From NCBI RefSeq assembly GCF_004359215.1, contig NC_090611.1, positions 4,852,089 through 4,916,088 on the forward strand: a DNA stretch of 64,000 nucleotides. The letters run 5' to 3'. Below the pieces are notes generated by a model. The model made no database searches. It had not been told where the DNA came from and was given only the letters and a program-made list of their open reading frames with translations. This document shows positions 28,332 through 38,991 of this stretch, piece by piece (the stretch's first letter is position 1; each line of letters begins with the position of its first letter). The DNA is from Bremia lactucae (Eukaryota > Oomycota > Peronosporomycetes > Peronosporales > Peronosporaceae). A program made the translations under genes and the position numbers.

Positions 28332-28431
28332 NNNNNNNNNNNNNNNNNNNNNNNNNNNNNNNNNNNNNNNNNNNNNNNNNNNNNNNNNNNNNNNNNNNNN
28401 NNNNNNNNNNNNNNNNNNNNNNNNNNNNNNN
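28332..28431. other. Assembly gap (100 N) immediately before telomere repeats
   Basis: Exactly 100 N. The left contig ends inside gypsy RT and the right contig begins with telomere repeats. Confidence 0.98.
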
Positions 28432-28643
28432 CTAAACCCTAAACCCTAAACCCTAAACCCTAAACCCTAAACCCTAAACCCTAAACCCTAAACCCTAAAC
28501 CCTAAACCCTAAACCCTAAACCCTAAACCCTAAACCCTAAACCCTAAACCCTAAACCCTAAACCCTAAACCCTAAACCCTAAACCCTACACCCTAAACCC
28601 CACACCCTAAACCCTACACCCTAAACCCTAAACCCTAAACCCT
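28432..28643 (+). repeat. Telomere repeat array (CCCTAAA)n
   Basis: About 30 units of the 7-base repeat CCCTAAA, perfect for the first 150 bases and then with variant units (CCCTACA, CCCCACA) before unique sequence. TTTAGGG is the known telomere repeat of oomycetes and of plants. The C-rich strand reads left to right, the orientation of a left chromosome end. The perfect part lies outward and the degenerate part inward, as expected of a true telomere. It starts exactly at a gap, so the contig to its right is probably a chromosome end wrongly placed inside this scaffold. Confidence 0.97.
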
Positions 28644-29010
28644 CACAATTGAAAGAAATATCTTTTATAATTTTTAAAATTATTGTTATATTCGAATTCA
28701 GCGGCAATATTGCAAAAACTCACAAATTTGTAAAGTTTTCAAAATTTTATTACGGAACCAAAAATTCAAGTTACAGAACAATATTTTGATATTCACATAA
28801 TTGTGAAACTTAACAAAATATTCTGAAACTTTACCGGAAATTGAAGTTATGACAATACGCGAATGTTCGTGAGGTTCAAGTCTAAATATAAGAGTACATC
28901 CTACTGATAAAGCAGAATTGCGATGTTAGTCTCATAGAATAATTTTTATACTGGCTTTAGGATAACCTAAGTTTTGTGGTAGCAACTTAGTTATCTCCTA
29001 AACCTTAAAT
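28644..29010 (+). repeat. Left pseudo-LTR / 3'-end remnant of an outer Penelope-like copy
   Basis: It matches 32066-32435 at roughly 80% by eye over its length: blocks aaaactcacaaatttgt, ggaaatt.aa.tt, tgttcgtgagg, aagtctaaatataa, catcctactgat, gttagtct, ggataa(cc)taagttt and acttagttatctcct. It joins the telomere array without other sequence. It ends in tctcctaaaccttaaat, itself telomere-like. Confidence 0.7.
28898..28940 (+). ncRNA. Decayed hammerhead-like motif in left pseudo-LTR
   Basis: It corresponds to 32328-32370, but the core reads CTGATAA rather than CTGATGA, and GAT rather than GAA, so two invariant hammerhead bases are changed. The GTC at the cleavage position is retained. It is probably inactive. 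Confidence 0.35.
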
Positions 29011-29572
29011 GTAATTAGGTTTTAAGTAAATCAACCCGTGCCTTTGAGGACCTGTGCGTTATTTGTATTGCTAATCGGGACACCCATTCGCAAGGAAGTT
29101 TTTTCCATTAGGGAAGTTTTGACTCTGCAGGCACACAGGAGTGTGAGTGAGCAGCACCCTGGAGATAGGAACCTAGAGTGTCTCCGTCTCGAACATAAAA
29201 TGTGCCGTGGTTTACGTAAAACTCGAAAGTGATATCGGGGCTTGGTAGAGAGAGAAGTTGTACTTTTCCCCAGCTATTTGTTTAGTAGCGCTGGATCCGG
29301 AATAAGATTTCTTCTGTTATTCCTCCCTTATTCAACTTAAATCGATACACGAGTAGGGCAATACGTCAAAATATCCGACGGATTAAGGCCTGCAGCCGAG
29401 CGCGCGGCCTCAAGAACCGACTTTCGGACCCGACGAAGACCCGACCAAGACAAGATCCGACCGAGCCGACTAGCCGACCGCGACGACCGACAGTTTGTGC
29501 TTTCGCAAGCCGACTGTTTCGCCATTCACATCCGACCTACTCTACTTCAGACCTAGGTTACGACACTTAAGG
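29011..29572 (+). other. Penelope-like element 5' untranslated region
   Basis: Between the left repeat and the ORF1 start at 29573. A 64-codon frame at 29038-29232 has no recognised motif. The section 29380-29560 is rich in cgac/gacc steps. Confidence 0.3.
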
Positions 29573-30429
29573 ATGGACCCGAGTAATCTGACTCGCCGCA
29601 GTCCGCCGCAAATCGTGATGAACATCATCGACTCCACGCTCAAGAAATATCGAAACCTTTCTGCCAAGATTAAATCGAAGCAGACAGCTCTTCAACGACT
29701 AAAGTTGGTCCCGCCCCGCTCCGTGAAAACTAAGATTTCGTTGAACGTGTCTAAAGACCTCGACAACACAGACAGTGCAAACTACCCCCGCTAAAGTTCA
29801 ATAAGCAGCTCGCCGACAACGAGAATGCTCTTGCATCCATCATCAAGGAAGCAACAGCTGTCGAGCTAGAGCTACTTCAACGCGAACAGGACGCACTGGC
29901 AACAACGTGTACTAGTGAGATAAGTTCTTTCTATAAAGATGTTCACACAATGCTCGCACCAAAAGTTCCACCCTGGGAAGATGCAATTGCTTTCCATACA
30001 GGGCAAACCTCCATGGCAGTAACTGACTTCCTTAATGCGAAGGCCATGTTCTACACAGGCTTGACGCAACTACGCTACGATTTGGCTCTCGAACAAGTCA
30101 TCATAACTCGTAAGAAGGCTGCCAAGGAAGCCAAACGAGCCTCAGCCATGGAACTCGACTCCGAAACTCCAATGGCTACCTCCGTTCAGGAGCTCGTCCG
30201 CCAACGCATCCAAAAAGAGATAGCACCTTTGAAGAAACAAGTCGCTGGTCTCAAGGTAGCGTTAAACGACAGCGCCGGTCGTCCACGGGGCACCGATCGG
30301 TGCAAGAATACTGCAACGCCCCAGCAGCAAAAGAAGAAGCAAAACGCAAAAGGAAAAGCGGACGTTTCCGGAGCAAACAAGTCCGGAAAGCGAAACGCCA
30401 AATCGAAATCAGGGAGCAACGCCAAGTAG
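29573..30429 (+). pseudogene. Penelope-like element ORF1, coiled-coil and lysine-rich
   Basis: It starts MDPSNLTRRSPPQIVMNIID. A frame change near 29790 leads into NKQLADNENALASIIKEATA and TAVELELLQREQDALATTC, then WEDAIAFHTGQTSMAVTDF, RYDLALEQVIITRKKAAKEA, a second coiled coil with EIAPLKKQVAGLKVAL, and a basic tail rich in Lys/Asn/Ala ending NAKSKSGSNAK. Long heptad-like stretches suggest oligomerisation, and the basic tail suggests nucleic-acid binding. ORF1 proteins with coiled coils precede the RT in Athena-type Penelope-like elements. The 3' end overlaps the RT frame, which runs on from about 30300. Confidence 0.6.
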
Positions 30430-31983
30430 AAAAACGCGAAGAACGCGAAAGGCAAGACCCAATCCAAGTAACTCGATCAGATCGCGGTAATGCCCTGGCT
30501 CTTTTTGCCAGGAGCAATGTTAAGGAATTAAATAGTTACGCTAGGAACTTAGCTTTTCGTAACTATGTTCCTAAATCCATACCTATCCCGCCCGCTCCAA
30601 ATCGTTTACTAGGCCTCAACCTTAAATTCTGCCCGACTCCTCGACCTATCCAACCGCCCGATCTTCATGCTGCACTTCCCGACTTTGAGCGTTGAGTACG
30701 ACTCTCCGCTCAATTCGGGAACGCTCTCGGAACATACAATCGCAAGATCTATGTTCCGAACACATCTTTTCAACCAAAACTAGCATCAGCTAAAGTTGAA
30801 AAAAAAATTGAAACGTGTCCGTGACGCTGTCGAACATGAAACCTGGACTCCTACAAAGTACAGAAATCTCAATACGACGCAACGCAACACATATCACTTG
30901 CTGAAAGGCCGTCCAGACCTTAAGGTTGTAGAGTCTTGGACCGGCACTTTTCACTCTACTTTGTATCCGTCCCATTGTCTCCAATAGCGGGAGCGTATTT
31001 GAAGGAATTTCAATATGGCTCGACTACATGCTCCAGCCTATTTACCAGTCCACGCAGACATACTTACGCAATTCCGACCAGCTCCTACATGACCTTCCAA
31101 ATCAGACATTTCCGCAAGATACGCTGCTTATCACTGTGGATGTAGAATCACTCTACACTAACATCCCCATCGAAAGAGCACTTCAAGCTATCTCGGCTCG
31201 TCTATCAAAACACCCATGGAAGGACGTTATCATATCAGGACTCCGACTGGTGATGAACAACAACTATTTCACCTTCGCAGACTCGTGCTGGCGAAAATTG
31301 CGCGAAACAGCAATGGGAACACCGGTCGCTCAGGCTTTTGCCTCGCTCTATGTAGCTCATGTCGAAGACACTACTTCCAGAATTTTCCTCCCATGTATAC
31401 TACCGCAAGCGTTGTATAGATGATATTTTTCTTCTATGGAGCCACGGTAGCAGCCTACAGCTTCAAGCACTTCCTAGCCAAGTTTTCTCAACGATCAGGT
31501 CTGTGCTTTACAAGCACTACATCTAGGACTGAAGCCGTCTTTTTAGATCTCTGCATCATCCGAGACAACGACAAGGTTTACTCTCGTACATACCAGAAAG
31601 CTCTGAACTTGTACTTGTACATTCCTGCTAACAGTGCTCACCCCCCAGGTGTTCTGAAGGGACTAATCTTTGGACTAGTTCGGAAATATCGCAAACAAAA
31701 TAGCAGATCCCGCGGCTGCAAGCAGATAGTCAAGCTACTTTATGCCCGAATCCTGGACCGAGGATACACCCCTTCGACGCTGAAACCACTGTTTGAGAAG
31801 GCTCTCGACATCTCCCCGACGCCGAAGCCACCGAATACAACAGCACCTATCGTCTTCAAGCTCCAATTTGACCCAAATGTACTTTCACGAGCGAGACTTA
31901 GATCACTCCTACAAGCTGATCTGTTGGAACAAGCACTCAATAAACAGATCAAAATCTGTTACCTAAAGCCTCCAACTCTTTAG
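30300..31983 (+). pseudogene. Penelope-like reverse transcriptase, frameshifted, no GIY-YIG domain
   Basis: Frame 30300-30695 has a basic helix, then NLAFRNYVPKSIPIPPAPNR and LGLNLKFCPTPRPI, the N-terminal signature of Penelope-like RTs. After shifts: KYRNLNTTQRNTYHLLKGRPD (30850-30925), RPIVSNSGSVFEG (about 30968), TLLITVDVESLYTNIPIERA (31125-31175), RETAMGTPVAQAFASL (31295-31345), RCIDDIFLLW (31410-31440), AVFLDLCIIRDND and YLYIPANSAHPPGVLKGLIF (to 31670). The catalytic box is CIDD instead of YxDD, one base from YIDD, with the Asp pair at 31419-31424. The frame closes at 31983 after KICYLKPPTL; no GIY-YIG or downstream zinc motif appears before the right repeat. Confidence 0.8.
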
Positions 31984-32065
31984 ACTCTGCTCTGTCCTAC
32001 GACACTCGCTACAACTGCCCCATCACCTGCGGCTCTACATCAAGACCGTACAGGTGCTAAGGTGT

Positions 32066-32435
32066 AAATCCTAAATCCAAAATTTGTGAAATATTTTAAA
32101 ATATTTTGAAATAATTGTAGTATTCAAGTTTAGCGGTAACATTGTGAAAACTCACAAATTTGTTATGTTTACATAATATTTTATCACGACACCGGAAATT
32201 CAAGTTACAAGACTTCATTTTGAGATTCATAAAATTGTGAAACTAAACGAAAAATTTTAAAACCGGAAATTCAATTTATGATAAATACGCGTATGTTCGT
32301 GAGGACCAAGTCTAAATATAAGGTAACATCCTACTGATGAAGCAGGATAGCGAAGTTAGTCTTACAGGATAATTTTTAGACTAGCTTTAGGATAGCTTAA
32401 GTTTTTGTGGTAACAACTTAATTATCTCCTACTCC
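32066..32435 (+). repeat. Right pseudo-LTR / 3' untranslated region of the Penelope-like element
   Basis: The partner of 28644-29010. It is preceded by taaatcctaaatcc, a degenerate telomere-like stretch, and it ends near 32435 where the minus-strand gag-like frame begins. In the Penelope family such repeats arise from partial tandem copies. Confidence 0.7.
32328..32370 (+). ncRNA. Hammerhead ribozyme-like motif in right pseudo-LTR
   Basis: CTGATGA (32334-32340), a short stem II closed by GC/GC, GAA (32352-32354), a very short stem III and GTC (32359-32361), in the order of a minimal type I hammerhead. Stem I is supported by ATCCT (32328-32332) pairing with AGGAT (32366-32370), plus an inner A-T pair; an internal bulge lies between. 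Minimal type I hammerheads are known in Penelope-like pseudo-LTRs. Weak points: position 15.1 is G rather than A, stem III would use wobble pairs, and an A precedes stem II. The predicted cut is after 32361. Confidence 0.5.
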
Positions 32436-33448
32436 CAAAGATAGACGTAGGATCATTCGTCTGAGCAAAAAGCACTAATTCCTCCGCTTGTCTCAAAAAG
32501 TCATCACGCTGCAGATTATAACGCGCGAGTAGAACTCCTTGAAACGCACTTGATGAGCAGGCGTACTTAGCGATGTTCTCGAGTACCTGGTCAGGCGCTC
32601 CACTGACCGCATCACTCACAGCCATCATATACATCATGTGATCATTCCATGACAATCTTTCTTCTTCGACGTGAAGAGCTTGAGTGCTTGAGATCTTGAT
32701 ATTCTAGGGCCAAACTTCATGTGCATCCTGTCCATCGCACACCACACTTGTGGATTTTCGGAATACCAGGTATCCACTTGGCTGTGAAAGTGTTGGCCAG
32801 CTTTGCCGATCAAAATTTTTCCTAGGACGTCCAGCTTAATGTCTTCCGTCCACATGCACTCACTGAGTTCTTCCGCGATACGAACTTGACGAAGAAATCG
32901 CTTTCCCCAAGGACCGAATCCAGCTCCAAGTCCAGGATACACCTCCTTCCCTTCGAAGGCCTCAATCGCAAGCTTTAGGTCCCAGAATTCCGGCCCCCTT
33001 GGCGCCGCAAGGTACGTAGGAGCTTGTGTCTGTCTATGTGCAGCTTTTTGTGGATGCTGTGGATGAAAACCTATCCCCCCGACTGCTCCTCCTGCCCTCT
33101 CTTGCCTAAATCCTGCTGCATAGTGTTGCGCTGGACTTGGCGTGACTTCGTCTTCAAGGGAAGCCATTGTCATGCTGCGACCGCGTCCCGTGCGCGCCTC
33201 CGCATAAGTGCGGAAGGTGCTGCTACAGGCAGACGCAACCGAAGCTTGGTCACCTCCAACTTGTCGAGCTTCTAGCCTGTTAAGGTGAGCTCCGATATCA
33301 CCCTTCATTTCCGTCTTTATTTCCCCAGCAGCCTTGCCACAGCCTCGTCCGTGTCGGAGCCTGTACTAGCTCCGGCATCGACGGCGTGCGGCGTGCTTGG
33401 CGCTTGGGGTCGATGTGGAGCGCCCTCATCCGTTGGATTTGGGCTCAT
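32422..33448 (-). pseudogene. Gag-like protein of an unassigned retroelement
   Basis: It starts MSPNPTDEGAPHRPQAPSTP at 33448; a 1-base insertion near 33320 shifts into IKTEMKGDIGAHLNRLEARQ. It then reads Pro/His-rich sequence, PRGPEFWDLKLAIEAFEGKE, LDVLGKILIGKAGQHFHSQV, HMKFGPRISRSQALKLFTSKK and, after a shift near 32650, MSWNDHMMYMMAVSDAVSG, ending FAQTNDPTSIFG. A helical core with a Trp-containing patch and a K-F-x-x-R-x-S block is gag-like. No zinc knuckle or pol remains. It abuts the 3' end of the Penelope-like element at about 32435, so that element or a telomeric break truncated it. Confidence 0.5.
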
Positions 33449-34033
33449 AACCTGCCAAACACGAGAGGAAAAGATGCTGCTACAAAGAGTGTGGCAAAGG
33501 ACGAAGTGAGTATATTGTTCTGTTTAAACTGCTTTCTCTTCACCTAGTCCCAACTGTTTTTTTACCTGTTTTGTGCCGTTTTCCTGTCACTGACGTATGT
33601 CCGCGCCGAGATCAACTTCATCGATGGTGTCGGTAAGTCGGTCGACTACACGTTGCTTTTTAACACGTAAGGACTTGACCTACAAGTAATGGTCGTTGTA
33701 GGGTCAGTAGGCAAATAGGACATCAGTGACAGGAGATTAAAACAGAAAATACACCGTTAAGTTCGAAAGTCGCTCTTATCGCTCTCCTAACATTGATTCC
33801 ATGTATTTTTGCGGCAGGGTACACAGCACCAAGGCACGCTGCAAAATTTGTGTCAGTATTAACATTTAACATCTTGAATTTGTATCTTCACTCTATGGAG
33901 CCTCCTCTAAAACTTAATGAAAACTATATATTTCCCCTCTACAAAAAATAAAATATCAGCTTCTTGATTACAGTATTTTGCACCCAATCATCTTCCATCT
34001 TCTCGATCCTTAACTTGATGTTTTTAGGCCGCC
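33449..34033 (+). promoter_or_regulatory. Upstream region of the Mios gene
   Basis: No gene is recognised. TTCACTCT at 33887-33894 fits the oomycete initiator consensus YTCANTYY, about 140 bases before the ATG at 34034. The start context gccgccATGA is strong. The nearest mobile element is the gag remnant about 600 bases upstream. Confidence 0.3.
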
Positions 34034-37000
34034 ATGAGTAAGCGTACCGTGGTGAAATGGTCTCCGCACGACGCGTCGCTTTTTGCGGTGGGTGCGGATA
34101 ATCTGCGCTTGTTCGAGGTGACAACATCTTCTTCTCTTAATCATGACTATGTCGACGCCGTGTCCGAGGCAGCAGCTCTCACGACGCAACGCAAGCGCGC
34201 TTTTCGCGTCGTGCGGATCAACGCGAAAGTCTCACAACTCAAATGTTTACAATGGTATCCGTTCGAAACCAAGCCACTACTAATCGCCACAGGCACACAA
34301 TCTGGAAAAGTATTTTTATGTGACTTTGAAGACCCTCGAGCGCGCGTAATGCGTGAATTTTTGCCAAAATACAGTCGTCCATGCCACACCGTGGCCTGGA
34401 ATCCATCAGTATCGAATCAATTGGCTGCAGGATTTGAAAAAGTTCGAAGTGATTTTTGTACATTCGTATGGGACTTGAATACGAGTAATGCCGTCGGAAC
34501 AGCAGCAGGGGGGCAGAGTGTCACGGGAAGCAGCAGTGCTAGCAATATCGAGGGCCACGTGGACCAAGACGGAGGTATGGAGAGAGCTCTAAATAACAGA
34601 AAAGGAGGAAATACTGGTGGAGGCACTGCAAGTGTTGGAGTCGGAGCAGGAGGCAATCAATTCGCCCCAACGGACTCGAAACCTGTGTATGAATTGGCAA
34701 ATTCGGAAGCTACATTGGCACTTTCGTGGGTACCAGTTCAGCCAACGTGCTTGGCAACGGGTACTGGATTCAAGTGGTTACGAATTTACGACTTAAGAGC
34801 TAAAGGGTCGTCGCCCATGAGTGTCGTGGCCCATCATAAAGCAGTGCTAGGAGTGGTCTTTGATCACCATCGTCCACATATGCTTGCAACGTATAGTGAT
34901 GCACCACAAGAGCCGGTAAAAGTCTGGGATATTCGTCAATTAGAGTCGTCGTCTGGACCCATAGTGTCGCTATACCATACAAGTCGAAGCCTTGCGCAAG
35001 TGTCGTGGTGTCCCTCAAAACCAGGTATTTTAGTCACAGCATCAAATGAAGAGAAATGGGTATCCTTGTGGGATATTACCAAGCCAGAAAGTGAATCTTC
35101 GATGCTCAAGAAGCCGTCCCGTCGACGGTATACATCGGAACCCTTGACTTCGTTTTCATGGCAGCATATTGACTTGCAAAGATCACGAACGACCAAAGGA
35201 AGCAATCGTAAATGTACGAAAAAACACGAATTATTGGCCGCCGCGTTTCCAAATCGATTGTTAACAGCATCGATTACTGGCGAGCTGGGAGATCTCTCGG
35301 TGCATGATGCCATGCCGCTTTCCTTGTCATCGCATGGAGCGGTGACGTTTGGATGTGGAAGGTTATTGTTTGGAGGTGCGAGTGGATTAGGAACGTCTGC
35401 TATGACTCGACTTACATTAGAGGAAGAAGCTTTCAAGGGCACTCGTGTAGACGACGACATTTCAAATGAAATGTATAAACGTGCGAAGCAAGGGTACTCG
35501 ATTGGTTTACCTACGAATCTTAAGCTCTTTAGCGAGCATAGTCCACGCAGTCGGCAATTGCGTCACCTCTGGGTGTGGGTGGATCAAGTCGAAATGCTGC
35601 GTACGATACAAGCGTCACGGATGGAGCAATCACGTGCTTCGAGTGTTGGAAATAGTACGACAAATGCGGGAATGATTGGTCCTTTGCGTGGATGGCCTGT
35701 TGATCCGAATGCGCTTGTTTTCGCCGGTGTCAAGAGTCTTTTAAAAGCTTCCGGAGATCCGTTGACAACTTCCAAAGCTAATTTGTCCAGCTCGGTTACC
35801 GATCAAGAAGACTCGCGTGAAGAAGAGCTTATTGTGACAATTGTCTCGGTCATGAAGACGGATCAAATCCTTGGATGTTTGTATTTTGAAGGGCTTGGAC
35901 GACGATTAGCTCTATTAGCGTGCAATTGGGATCCCGATTCTGGTCAAGGTGGCGCTCGTACAACAATTGTTGGAGGTGGACCTGGTCTGGAGAGCGCCGC
36001 AGGAGGAAGAAACATGCATCGCAGTAGTTCGAGTACGTGGAATTCTCAAAAACTATTTGACGAGAATGCACGTTTGGGGAATCGACCCGGGTTTGAAAAT
36101 GGACATCACGAGCTCTCGAGTATTCTGAATCGCTGTGAAGTCGAAGGAAATTACGCGCGCGCGGCAGCACTTGCGGTGTTTCATGGTGATTTAAATACCG
36201 CAGTAACCCTTTTACAAAAAGGAGCGTCGTGGGTGACACAAATGCAGCATTTAAACATTGGCGTCGTGTCGCCGTATTCGCCTGATTTATTGCAGCTCGT
36301 TGCCATGTCGGTTGCAGGGTATTCAACGTCAATTGCAAGTGCTGGAGGCATTTCGTTATGGTCGACTATGACGCAGCAATTGTTGAAACGAAGTGAAATT
36401 GTATCCCAAGCAAATCCTCGGTACTTTCACGCCATGCTGTCTTTCTTGTGCGTTATAAGCTCGACGTTTTCATCGACCACTACTGTCAATTCGATACGAG
36501 CGCAGCCTTTACGGCGTCCCAATGGTCGAAGACAATGGGGAAGTTCGGAAGCATTGGCAGCATACGGAGCTCGACAGGTAAGTGCTGGTGCCTACTCGGC
36601 AATTCTACACGACATTACGCTTCCGTTAAGCGATCGTCTTGCATTTGCTTGTCGATATCTTCAAGCAGATGAGTTGCTTGCGTTTGTGGCGCAGCACGAA
36701 GAAGAGAGTGAACAATTTGGACGTCTTGAAGGGATTATTGTCACAGGATTCAACGTTGATGGTATTCGACTCTTGCAAACGTACTTGGATCGAACAGGAG
36801 ACATTCAAACACTTGCGTTATTCGCTGCACGATTGCCAGCGACGTATGTATCGGAATCAGCACAACTACACCAGTGGATTCAAATTTATAAAGATTTGCT
36901 GAATCAATGGCAACTCTTTCATGAACGTGCGCGTTTTGATGTCGGACGTGCACAATTGCAAGATAGGTTAAAAGGGTTTTCGAGTTTATTGTCTCGAAAC

Positions 37001-37987
37001 TTTCAAAGCTTATCGAAAGATTCGTTGAAAGCATTTACGCAGTCCGTGCCACCGCAATTGTATGTGCGTTGTAACTTTTGCAATGCATCGTTGTCGTTAG
37101 CAAGTTTGCTTCGACTCGGTGGATCTCATTCTTCGTGGCTTAATCGTGCAAAACCAAAATTAACGTGCTGTCCGACGTGTCGAAAGCCCCTTCCACAGTG
37201 CGCATTGTGCTTACTACCCTTTGGGTCCCTCAATCCGTACTTTGAATTGGCCCGTCGAAGTTCTCGACAAACGGCAGATGCTGTAAGTTCGTTACTTAAT
37301 ACCGTGGGTAGTGATCCTGGAAGTGTTTTGAAAGAACCCCAGAATGGTATCCACGAGAATGAAAACCTCGCTCAATTGTCAAGTATCCCATTTGTCGAGT
37401 GGTTTACGTGGTGCCAATCGTGTAAACACGGAGGACATGCCCATCACTTGGCCGATTGGTTTCAAGCTCATTGCGTTTGTCCTGTCACGGACTGCAAGTG
37501 TCAATGTCAACACTTGGACTTGCCACTCGTGGGAGATCAAACGCAAAAGCACTTGATTGAACACCAACGCGCTGCGACATTACGAGCTGTGGCACAAGGC
37601 AAAACAAAGCAATTGGAAGGACAGCAGTCGAAGGAGGCAAAAGTTTCGATACGTGGATTAAAACATTCGTTTTCGGACAAACAACAGCAACAGGTGGCAT
37701 CCAGGCCCCAGAATGGACAGCATCCTTTTTCCGTGGCGTCGTTAGGATCTGGATCAACGTTTCGATCGTACTCGTCGGCTCAACTTCGACCGAGTGGCTC
37801 ATCGAATGGCTACCCACCTCCATTTTCGTTATCCGGAAGCAATTCCATGGCGAATTTGTCGAGTGGCATCAATAGTGTGGCAACGGGGGGCACGAATGTT
37901 GGTACTGGGACACTGAGTGATGGTTTTTCGCTTGGCAACAAGCTGGATCAACTGGAAAAAGAGAAGAAGAATTATCAGTACATGTAA
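34034..37987 (+). CDS. WD-repeat protein Mios (GATOR2 complex subunit; yeast Sea4 homologue)
   Basis: An uninterrupted 1317-residue protein. Residues 1-400 form WD repeats: KRTVVKWSPHDASLFAVG, LQWYPFETKPLLIATGTQSG, PVYELANSEATLALSWVP, LATGTGFKWLRIYDLR, APQEPVKVWDIRQLE, KPGILVTASNEEKWVSLWDI. Residues about 660-990 are helical (alpha-solenoid). From 1013 there is a zinc-binding C-terminus: CNFC, CCPTCRKPLPQCALC (about 1044-1059), WCQSCKHGGHAHH (about 1126), and HCVCPVTDCKCQCQH (1146-1160), a RING-like arrangement typical of Mios. The tail is Gln/Ser-rich. Mios is part of GATOR2, which signals amino-acid sufficiency to TORC1 at the lysosome/vacuole. The 160-250 segment is a Gly/Ser-rich insert in the WD region. 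No intron or frameshift, so this is a genuine host gene. Confidence 0.93.
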   Translation: MSKRTVVKWSPHDASLFAVGADNLRLFEVTTSSSLNHDYVDAVSEAAALTTQRKRAFRVVRINAKVSQLKCLQWYPFETKPLLIATGTQSGKVFLCDFEDPRARVMREFLPKYSRPCHTVAWNPSVSNQLAAGFEKVRSDFCTFVWDLNTSNAVGTAAGGQSVTGSSSASNIEGHVDQDGGMERALNNRKGGNTGGGTASVGVGAGGNQFAPTDSKPVYELANSEATLALSWVPVQPTCLATGTGFKWLRIYDLRAKGSSPMSVVAHHKAVLGVVFDHHRPHMLATYSDAPQEPVKVWDIRQLESSSGPIVSLYHTSRSLAQVSWCPSKPGILVTASNEEKWVSLWDITKPESESSMLKKPSRRRYTSEPLTSFSWQHIDLQRSRTTKGSNRKCTKKHELLAAAFPNRLLTASITGELGDLSVHDAMPLSLSSHGAVTFGCGRLLFGGASGLGTSAMTRLTLEEEAFKGTRVDDDISNEMYKRAKQGYSIGLPTNLKLFSEHSPRSRQLRHLWVWVDQVEMLRTIQASRMEQSRASSVGNSTTNAGMIGPLRGWPVDPNALVFAGVKSLLKASGDPLTTSKANLSSSVTDQEDSREEELIVTIVSVMKTDQILGCLYFEGLGRRLALLACNWDPDSGQGGARTTIVGGGPGLESAAGGRNMHRSSSSTWNSQKLFDENARLGNRPGFENGHHELSSILNRCEVEGNYARAAALAVFHGDLNTAVTLLQKGASWVTQMQHLNIGVVSPYSPDLLQLVAMSVAGYSTSIASAGGISLWSTMTQQLLKRSEIVSQANPRYFHAMLSFLCVISSTFSSTTTVNSIRAQPLRRPNGRRQWGSSEALAAYGARQVSAGAYSAILHDITLPLSDRLAFACRYLQADELLAFVAQHEEESEQFGRLEGIIVTGFNVDGIRLLQTYLDRTGDIQTLALFAARLPATYVSESAQLHQWIQIYKDLLNQWQLFHERARFDVGRAQLQDRLKGFSSLLSRNFQSLSKDSLKAFTQSVPPQLYVRCNFCNASLSLASLLRLGGSHSSWLNRAKPKLTCCPTCRKPLPQCALCLLPFGSLNPYFELARRSSRQTADAVSSLLNTVGSDPGSVLKEPQNGIHENENLAQLSSIPFVEWFTWCQSCKHGGHAHHLADWFQAHCVCPVTDCKCQCQHLDLPLVGDQTQKHLIEHQRAATLRAVAQGKTKQLEGQQSKEAKVSIRGLKHSFSDKQQQQVASRPQNGQHPFSVASLGSGSTFRSYSSAQLRPSGSSNGYPPPFSLSGSNSMANLSSGINSVATGGTNVGTGTLSDGFSLGNKLDQLEKEKKNYQYM

Positions 37988-38107
37988 GTAGTTATTAAAA
38001 CTTTGAGCAGCTTAAATACAGGTACTGCGCCTAATACGGGTAGAACAAAATATTTTTTTAGTGGAAATTAAAAAAAATAACGTGAGTGATTTGAAGTTTT
38101 ACAAAAT

Positions 38108-38467
38108 CTAGGAACTTGTCACGCCCAAAAGGGAGACTCGACGACTGTAGTCGTCCAGGATTTCTTGCTCGGTGGTACCTAGACGCTTTATTGCTCGTTC
38201 GCGGTGCAACTGTTCATCGTTAAAGCCAAAGATGAACTCCACTTTCGATGTTGGCTTCAATTGAGATACGCCAGTATATCGGCGCAATTCCTCACTTTCA
38301 ACGATATCGCCGTCACAAATGCCAAGCTTCTTCATGCCCTTTTCCTTTTTCAAAATGTCCAAGTTCACACCAAGACGATTAAGGGCACGTCGACTTATTC
38401 TGTTTGACGTTTTCAGGTGGTGTTTGCTTGATAGGGTTCTATCTGACACCGGTAATTTTGACATCAT
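38108..38467 (-). CDS. Small basic protein of unknown function
   Basis: A 119-residue frame, MMSKLPVSDRTLSSKHHLKT at the start, then SRRALNRLGVNLDILKKEKG, GDIVESEELRRYTGVSQL, KVEFIFGFNDEQLHRERAIK and TEQEILDDYSRRVSLLGVTSS. The composition and even spacing of charged residues look genuine. No signal peptide, membrane segment or known domain. It converges with Mios (120 bases apart). The start could be either of the two adjacent ATGs. I do not recognise the family. Confidence 0.55.
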   Translation of the reverse strand: MMSKLPVSDRTLSSKHHLKTSNRISRRALNRLGVNLDILKKEKGMKKLGICDGDIVESEELRRYTGVSQLKPTSKVEFIFGFNDEQLHRERAIKRLGTTEQEILDDYSRRVSLLGVTSS

Positions 38468-38482
38468 AGAGGGCTTACAGAA

Positions 38483-38725
38483 TTGGCTTATAGGAAAGAA
38501 CTAGGCGTGTCTTTCCGAGGTGAGAGACTATTTATAAAATTGCTATGGGAGCTTTGCCAGCTTCGCAGAGGGTCAGCCATTGGGACAGATCATTTGGATA
38601 AAAAACCAATAAGCAAAGATCATAAAAAGTTATATATTTCATATAAGGATTCGAAGACGGGTCGCGAGCCGTTGTTCAAGCTGCTTGAAGCGGAAGGCAT
38701 AAAGGATACAACGTTCTTGGATTAA
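38483..38725 (+). CDS. Possible small ORF or gene fragment, divergent from 38108-38467
   Basis: An 80-codon frame, whose later half looks coding: GTDHLDKKPISKDHKKLYIS, YKDSKTGREPLFKLLEAEGI. It starts only 15 bases from the start of the gene on the other strand, so either its true start is elsewhere or it is an exon fragment. Not recognised. Confidence 0.3.
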   Translation: MAYRKELGVSFRGERLFIKLLWELCQLRRGSAIGTDHLDKKPISKDHKKLYISYKDSKTGREPLFKLLEAEGIKDTTFLD

Positions 38726-38991
38726 AATTGGTGGCAACCGCTTAAGATTTATACAATAAGGAATTCGTTTGTAGTCAAAAGTATTGGCAGGCACGGCATT
38801 CAAGCTAAATGGGTAGTGCATGCTTGTATATAATAGGTTGCTGGGGATAACGACAGCTGCTCTTTGTGTGGTTTTCTTCCGCACTTCTTGCTAAATTTCT
38901 ATTTTCACAAAATCTGGATGCTTTTTGCGGAATTCGTTGACTTGTGAGAAATTAAATACGGCGTACGTTTTGCTCTCTCATTGATGTCGCT
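38726..38991. other. Contig end, no gene recognised
   Basis: A minus-strand frame at 38884-38639 is present but without a motif. The contig stops at the single n at 38992. Confidence 0.3.

Follow-up and report, generated by a model that had tools for sequence, protein, structure and literature searches.

A probable dead copy of a telomere-associated, endonuclease-lacking Penelope-like retrotransposon in the oomycete Bremia lactucae, with a proposed cycle of priming from DNA ends

Penelope-like elements (PLEs) deficient in endonuclease, Coprina among them, were reportedly described by Gladyshev and Arkhipova in 2007 as telomeric, 5' truncated and capped, and fungi, plants and stramenopiles are said to be among their hosts. 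Here we consider an element from the oomycete Bremia lactucae, found within 64,000 nucleotides of contig NC_090611.1 (the window; C2:4852089-4916088 in our numbering of the genome, which comprises 115.9 Mb in 220 contigs). The element lies at window positions 28644-32431 and consists of pseudo-long terminal repeats (pLTRs) and the remnants of a first open reading frame (ORF1) and of a reverse transcriptase (RT) frame, its sense strand running inward, away from an adjoining CCCTAAA array. The copy is dead, and the retrotransposon from which it derives, here called family A, is very probably a telomere-associated Penelope-like element that lacks an endonuclease; for it we propose a cycle of priming from DNA ends.

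The closest described systems are the telomere-associated, endonuclease-deficient PLEs, which, in the accessible portion of PMC6431247, are cut short at the 5' end by telomeric repeats, stand in head-to-tail arrays and carry a stretch of reverse-complement telomeric sequence at their 3' end. The Athena elements and Terminons of bdelloid rotifers, as presented in the same portion of that source, share all of these features with the Bremia family, together with two ORFs and an RT frame free of GIY-YIG. Since these features have already been described for that group, the Bremia family is a further member of it; it differs from Athena in its oomycete host, its TTTAGGG repeats, its compact 3.7-kb unit, its pLTRs and the telomere-like units that stand also at the pLTR 5' border. 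Canonical Penelope, according to the parts of PMC6431247 and PMC3846280 available, has RT and GIY-YIG in one ORF and can generate target-site duplications; pLTRs are common to it and to the Bremia family, whereas GIY-YIG and target-site duplications are not seen in the latter. No comparable oomycete element appeared among the literature titles and abstract openings searched (oomycete, Phytophthora or Bremia with Penelope or telomere), full texts lying mostly outside this check. New to us are internal scars with microhomology to the element's tail, telomere seeds at both pLTR borders and a common -1 arrangement of ORF1 and RT. The stacking of relatives at chromosome ends and the small scars at internal sites point to free DNA ends as the places where the copying of such elements begins.

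The Penelope-type RT motifs quoted in a first-pass annotation of the window are present, with the catalytic YIDD of intact copies decayed to CIDD (read by eye). Both frames are broken and 240 bp of the RT are missing, and the window copy is dead; the upstream ORF1 that had been described does exist, in disrupted form, and its basic C-terminal part is seen in intact copies. A DNA search of the same genome returned copies on C10, C7, C6, C13, C16 and C11, as well as a distantly related copy on C4. The end of C10 carries head-to-tail units with a period of 3738 bp, one pLTR per unit and the sense strand inward; two inner units are 99.95% identical, and the outermost, which runs off the contig, is 94% identical. 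Between the C7 copy and the inner C10 units identity is 99.93%, although a lone N marks the start of the former. ORF1 of the intact copies encodes 299 amino acids (aa), 31% of the last 70 being lysine or arginine, and their RT frame runs for 761 aa without stops. Within the outermost C10 unit (C10:7146441-7148212) identity shifts from about 100% to about 87-89%, which could indicate either a mosaic copy or a chimeric contig end.

Searched at the protein level, the genome yielded 68 matches, with 59 of 67 candidates scored; we group these into 24 loci. Family A is accompanied by at least two further families: B, with an intact representative at C7:3452042-3454246 that is 46% identical to A, and C, on C154, with 43% identity over its better piece. 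In all three the RT frame is always -1 relative to ORF1, its first methionine comes late, and slippery-looking heptamers (GTTAAAC, TTTAAAC and AAAAAAC) occur where ORF1 and ORF2 overlap; RT may be produced by -1 frameshifting.

Because the window copy is broken, its own missing GIY-YIG proves little, and the first-pass observation that none lies between the RT and the right repeat has to be judged on intact relatives. There it stands: only RVT_1 passes the Pfam cut-off in the intact RT frame, which stops 28 residues past a KPPTL motif without a GIY-YIG. The presence of this domain in full-length relatives had been named beforehand as a finding that would overturn the assignment; profile checks of the intact copies and of the whole genome with PF01541 gave no match, the Pfam profile's sensitivity being such that 12 of 14 control genomes matched. 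PF01541 is also absent from all 215 homologues listed, by their precomputed domain column, and no target-site duplication was apparent at the sites compared. One RT homologue, P0003, has a predicted fold closest to telomerase RT (TERT), which supports a telomerase-like fold for the family RT. No protein named Athena, Coprina or endonuclease-bearing Penelope occurs among the homologues listed, and the RT tree took in our own sequences, one Pythium oligandrum protein and other database sequences; by its motifs, we take the Bremia RT to be of the same general kind as that of canonical Penelope.

Telomere arrays were defined by at least 12 perfect units, giving 97 pattern places grouped into 17 arrays. 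Outwardly, 14 of these are bounded by an N gap or the end of a contig, and a fifteenth (C7:6910) by three Ns. Eight arrays (C2, C4:4, C4:10848, C4:7468112, C7:6910, C7:3450773, C11 and C154) have PLE coding or pLTR sequence no more than 5 kb away, and several copies directly abut telomere repeats. Half of the RT loci (12 of 24) are found 10 kb or less from an array, where 0.075 would be expected; this count used 18 arrays (the 17 and an 11-unit array on C10), and its P value is too small, since members of a single stack are not independent. Among the 13 RT loci within 20 kb of an array, 11 read inward. The mapping of genomic copies against TTTAGGG arrays that had been proposed for the window element thus returns non-random proximity and a mostly inward polarity. 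The first-pass observation of the element is confirmed and its interpretation partly supported: contact with the array and inward reading hold for the window copy, and a proven chromosome end does not, the array abutting a 100-N gap inside scaffold C2 at 4.88 Mb.

The borders of the pLTRs are where element and telomere meet. At the 3' border the native sequence is CTCCTAAACC in family A and CAACCCTAAACC in family B, both also found where the pLTR meets the leader, and each includes a short telomere-complementary stretch (native CCTAAACC / ACCCTAAACC); two telomere-like units (TAAACCCTAAACCC in A and B) open the pLTR, and these units take in the ORF2 stop codon. Eight family A 3' ends were read, with those of the window and C6 counted once. 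The copies on C11, C7 and C154 run directly into telomere repeats at the native tail, that on C13 passes into degenerate repeats, and a 3' copy of family B continues as telomere-like repeats. Telomere arrays cap the 5' borders of the window copy and of family B (C7:3450773), both fused at the pLTR 5' border, and on C11 a 5'-truncated copy sits between an array of 4-5 units and one of 16. For the family, then, the junctions agree with priming by the 3' overhang of the G-rich strand, as had been suggested, and with later regrowth of telomeres, both of which would be steps in the past of these copies; the window copy, whose 3' end is joined to a retrotransposon with long terminal repeats (LTRs), does not share in this.

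Away from the telomeres, 18 scars of about 25-90 bp, derived from the extreme PLE 3' end, occupy 15 internal places. The pattern GTAGCAACTTAATTATCTCCTAAACC, with up to three mismatches, has 26 genome matches against 0 for a reversed control, 11 at pLTRs of longer copies and 15 short and internal; three further scars were found only by a DNA search with the last 80 bp of the pLTR. Three are clustered on C15 (642585-642782) and two on C6 (3639347-3639500). Scars were read with their flanks in two sets, of 14 and 15, with 11 in common. The match extends for 0-63 nt upstream of the 26-mer, with 13 different values among 15 pieces, and by our reading the end is exactly CCTAAACC in five of 18 and differs by 1-3 changes in ten. 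Target sequence was comparable for five junctions. The scar at C1:3263933 lies inside a Copia-like pol (named by eye) in which all 39 other listed matches span 520-528 bp, against 550 at the filled site; set beside two unfilled matches, it has lost target sequence, and the target reads TCTACTAAATT where the tail has TCTCCTAAACC. At C2:948122 the scar joins two different repeats, the right one reading AACATAAACC; no other scored match spans both flanks, and C112 has both nearby in opposite orientation. At C107:786662 about 22 bp have been replaced, with AACC common to target and tail. Four of the five compared targets have 4-6 nt in common with the tail, and in-register matches to the 11-nt tail number 8 at C1 and also at C2, 5 at C107 (range over copies 5-7) and 7 at the window junction (range 3-7); random 11-mers reach at least 8 in 0.28% of cases, at least 7 in 0.9% and at least 5 in 12%, rates that are a guide only, since the register was picked after the junctions had been seen. 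The scars support endonuclease-independent priming from free DNA 3' ends. The closest parallel that we have met, in the part of PMC2246262 available, is mammalian telomerase, which left telomeric and telomerase-RNA patches at breaks with microhomology; here the template would be the element's own RNA, and the patch its 3' end.

In proposing how such copies arise, we suppose that an RNA with the 3' tail ...UUAUCUCCUAAACC would be copied by the telomerase-like RT, which, having no endonuclease, would use a free DNA 3' end as its primer. The usual primer would be the G-rich telomere overhang, its GGTTTAGG pairing with CCUAAACC, and this pairing would explain both the telomere repeats directly past the 3' end and the inward sense strand. 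Now and then the RT would start instead from a DNA end that an internal break has exposed and that matches in a few bases, leaving a short 5'-truncated scar. After full copying, the telomere-like units at the pLTR 5' border would leave a telomeric G-strand end, which telomerase or the next element could extend, giving telomere caps and head-to-tail stacks. The family A RT would accordingly be expected to extend primers ending GGTTTAGG, GGTTTATG or GGTTTAGGG annealed to the 3' tail. A wider proposal is that a telomere-specialised PLE also patches internal breaks, fossilising the mismatches of its primers, that the telomere seed at each end lets element and telomerase alternate in end maintenance, and that the family is a living analogue of the step between retroelement and telomerase; this we offer tentatively, with our doubts slightly ahead of our belief. 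It addresses two open questions, how an RT without endonuclease finds its primer and how such elements gave rise to telomerase. At one scaffold end the genome holds stacked copies that are intact and nearly identical; it has three or more families, and its scars allow target and tail to be aligned base against base. With all of these in one genome, the end-priming model is directly testable.

Several observations weigh against such a cycle. Nine of the 17 arrays have no PLE reading frame in the 1.4-3 kb of inner flank examined, and two of the 13 near-array loci (C4:9048-10731 and C10:7129214) have the opposite polarity. In the innermost C10 and older C7 copies the telomere units set in 26 and 6 nt, respectively, ahead of the usual tail, and the 3' ends of C16 and of window/C6 are not joined to telomere repeats. 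Three of the 18 scars (C8, C13:1367373 and C15:642585) fail to reach the tail by as much as about 8 nt. Agreement between target and tail varies (8, 8, 7 and 5 of 11), and C15:642585, set against a diverged locus, has 2-4 of 11 tail bases. The assembly is moreover gap-rich and gap-filled, and identical copies could be artefacts of gap filling. A rival account is passive clustering, in which elements insert anywhere, survive in gene-poor subtelomeres and have their arrays spread by recombination between ends. Window and C6 share a junction and a deletion, so that these loci have exchanged sequence; near-identical tandem units like those of C10 are expected from unequal exchange as well; and eight of the 24 RT loci are on contigs without an array, with two more at least 40 kb from one. 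We nevertheless find this account improbable, because most 3' ends meet telomere repeats near one place, in register with the native CCTAAACC tail, because of the polarity bias, and because what the 3'-end pattern picks up internally amounts to very small 3' fragments. That the family is an ordinary endonuclease-bearing Penelope whose local copies have lost GIY-YIG draws on the broken state of the window copy, and is scarcely credible given where the intact RT frame ends, the missing PF01541 in listed homologues and genome alike, and the lack of apparent target-site duplications at the compared sites. A somewhat stronger objection concerns the scars, which would say nothing of priming if they belonged to a short interspersed family of their own or were pieces of cDNA that end joining had captured: 14 pieces are 87-96% identical to the window pLTR end over 38-85 bp, end joining too uses microhomology, and five of the 18 fall in two clusters. 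We regard this as unlikely, since upstream lengths vary, 15 of 18 pieces reach the tail with at most three changes in the last 8 bases, the last bases at C1 and C2 depart from the tail just where the target itself does, which is the trace expected of a primer, and targets have lost bases or join two different repeats.

The end-priming model applies to the family more readily than to the window locus itself. There the PLE 3' end runs straight into the gag-like part of an LTR retrotransposon, with CCTA common to that sequence and the tail; five PLE-free copies of that retrotransposon (on C14, C8, C9, C1 and C10) read ...CCCTACTCCCAAAG... or a close variant, and the window and C6 junctions ...ATCTCCTACTCCCAAAG.... 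The window copy, as it stands, was therefore not primed from telomere repeats: it is attached at a non-telomeric site, with the telomere array now at its 5' end. This arrangement may reflect a healed chromosome end, recombination between loci or, in part, the assembly. It is a real possibility, though not the one we lean towards, that the array here is interstitial, or the contig misjoined or an alternative haplotype, with no present chromosome end. The array lies within scaffold C2 with a gap outside it, and window 32839-38991 has a PLE-free counterpart in the interior of C10, with 98-100% identity, in which the LTR element continues past the junction. On the other side, most arrays meet a gap or contig end outside, as true ends would, and Hi-C scaffolding combined with telomere co-localisation could wrongly join true ends: the published B. 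lactucae assembly, as far as the available part of PMC6570648 describes it, amounts to 115 Mb, of which 24 Mb are gaps, and was Hi-C scaffolded, and Hi-C maps of another downy mildew, the related P. effusa, show co-localisation of all telomeres, according to the corresponding portion of PMC11540230.

Table 1. Features of the window around the Penelope-like element (window coordinates).
Feature	Position	Strand	Remarks
Scaffold gap, 100 N	28332..28431		directly outside telomere array
Telomere repeat array (CCCTAAA)n	28432..28643	+	30.3 copies, 96% matches
5' pLTR	28644..29004	+	starts at family's natural 5' border (by eye); ends CTCCTAAACC
5' untranslated leader	29005..29572	+	from alignment with intact C10/C7 copies
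ORF1 remnant	29573..30471	+	frame broken, premature TAG; 299 aa and basic C-terminal part in intact copies
ORF2 remnant (RT)	30036..32061	+	several stops; -1 frame relative to ORF1 in intact copies
Point of 240-bp in-frame RT deletion	30954..30955	+	common to C6 copy
3' pLTR	32062..32431	+	starts with decayed telomere-like units TAAATCCTAAATCC; intact copies TAAACCCTAAACCC
Truncated LTR retrotransposon (gag-like region and LTR, named by eye)	32428..33666	-	outside PLE; joined via CCTA
MIOS-like WD-repeat gene	34037..37987	+	first host gene inside of PLE, 1.6 kb away

The inner units of the window array are partly degenerate (CCCTACA, CCCCACA). Direct repeats bound the PLE (28655-29000 against 32088-32431, 81% identical), and its 3' border falls at 32427-32431 and not at 32435, where it had been placed, because 32428-32435 (CCTACTCC) is also part of the adjoining LTR retrotransposon. 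The product of the MIOS-like gene is 99% identical to B. lactucae CCR75_003941 over the 450 residues compared, and so identifies the host. The block of about 6 kb that carries this gene stands beside the array on C2 and in the interior of C10 (C10:5283011-5289208), as after a recent duplication, in another haplotype or through contig misplacement. Between C6:72066-74645 and window 29850-32435, which have the 240-bp deletion and the LTR-element junction in common, the flanks differ by 11-12% and the elements by 4%; the two may, for instance, have undergone gene conversion, or have exchanged sequence as far as their homology extends.

The hammerhead ribozyme that is a feature of Terminons and Athena had no Rfam match at gathering level in 12 sources, nor up to E 10 in two. 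The 3' part of the family A pLTR (e.g., window 32352-32431) conserves a CTGATGAAGC..GCGAAA string, and the minimum-energy fold of the conserved CTGATGA..GCGAAA string is a different hairpin, not hammerhead-like. A strong 11-bp hairpin precedes the tail, and this region, in which no hammerhead is recognised, is possibly an RT-binding structure.

At C4:1-10931 a family B fragment of opposite polarity lies between two CCCTAAA arrays of the same orientation, which would fit either a rearranged end or an assembly error. Beside the arrays at C154, C4:7468112, C16:121485 and C8:15103 stands the same AT-rich stretch (recognised by eye; in reverse on C8), possibly the leader or pLTR of another PLE family.

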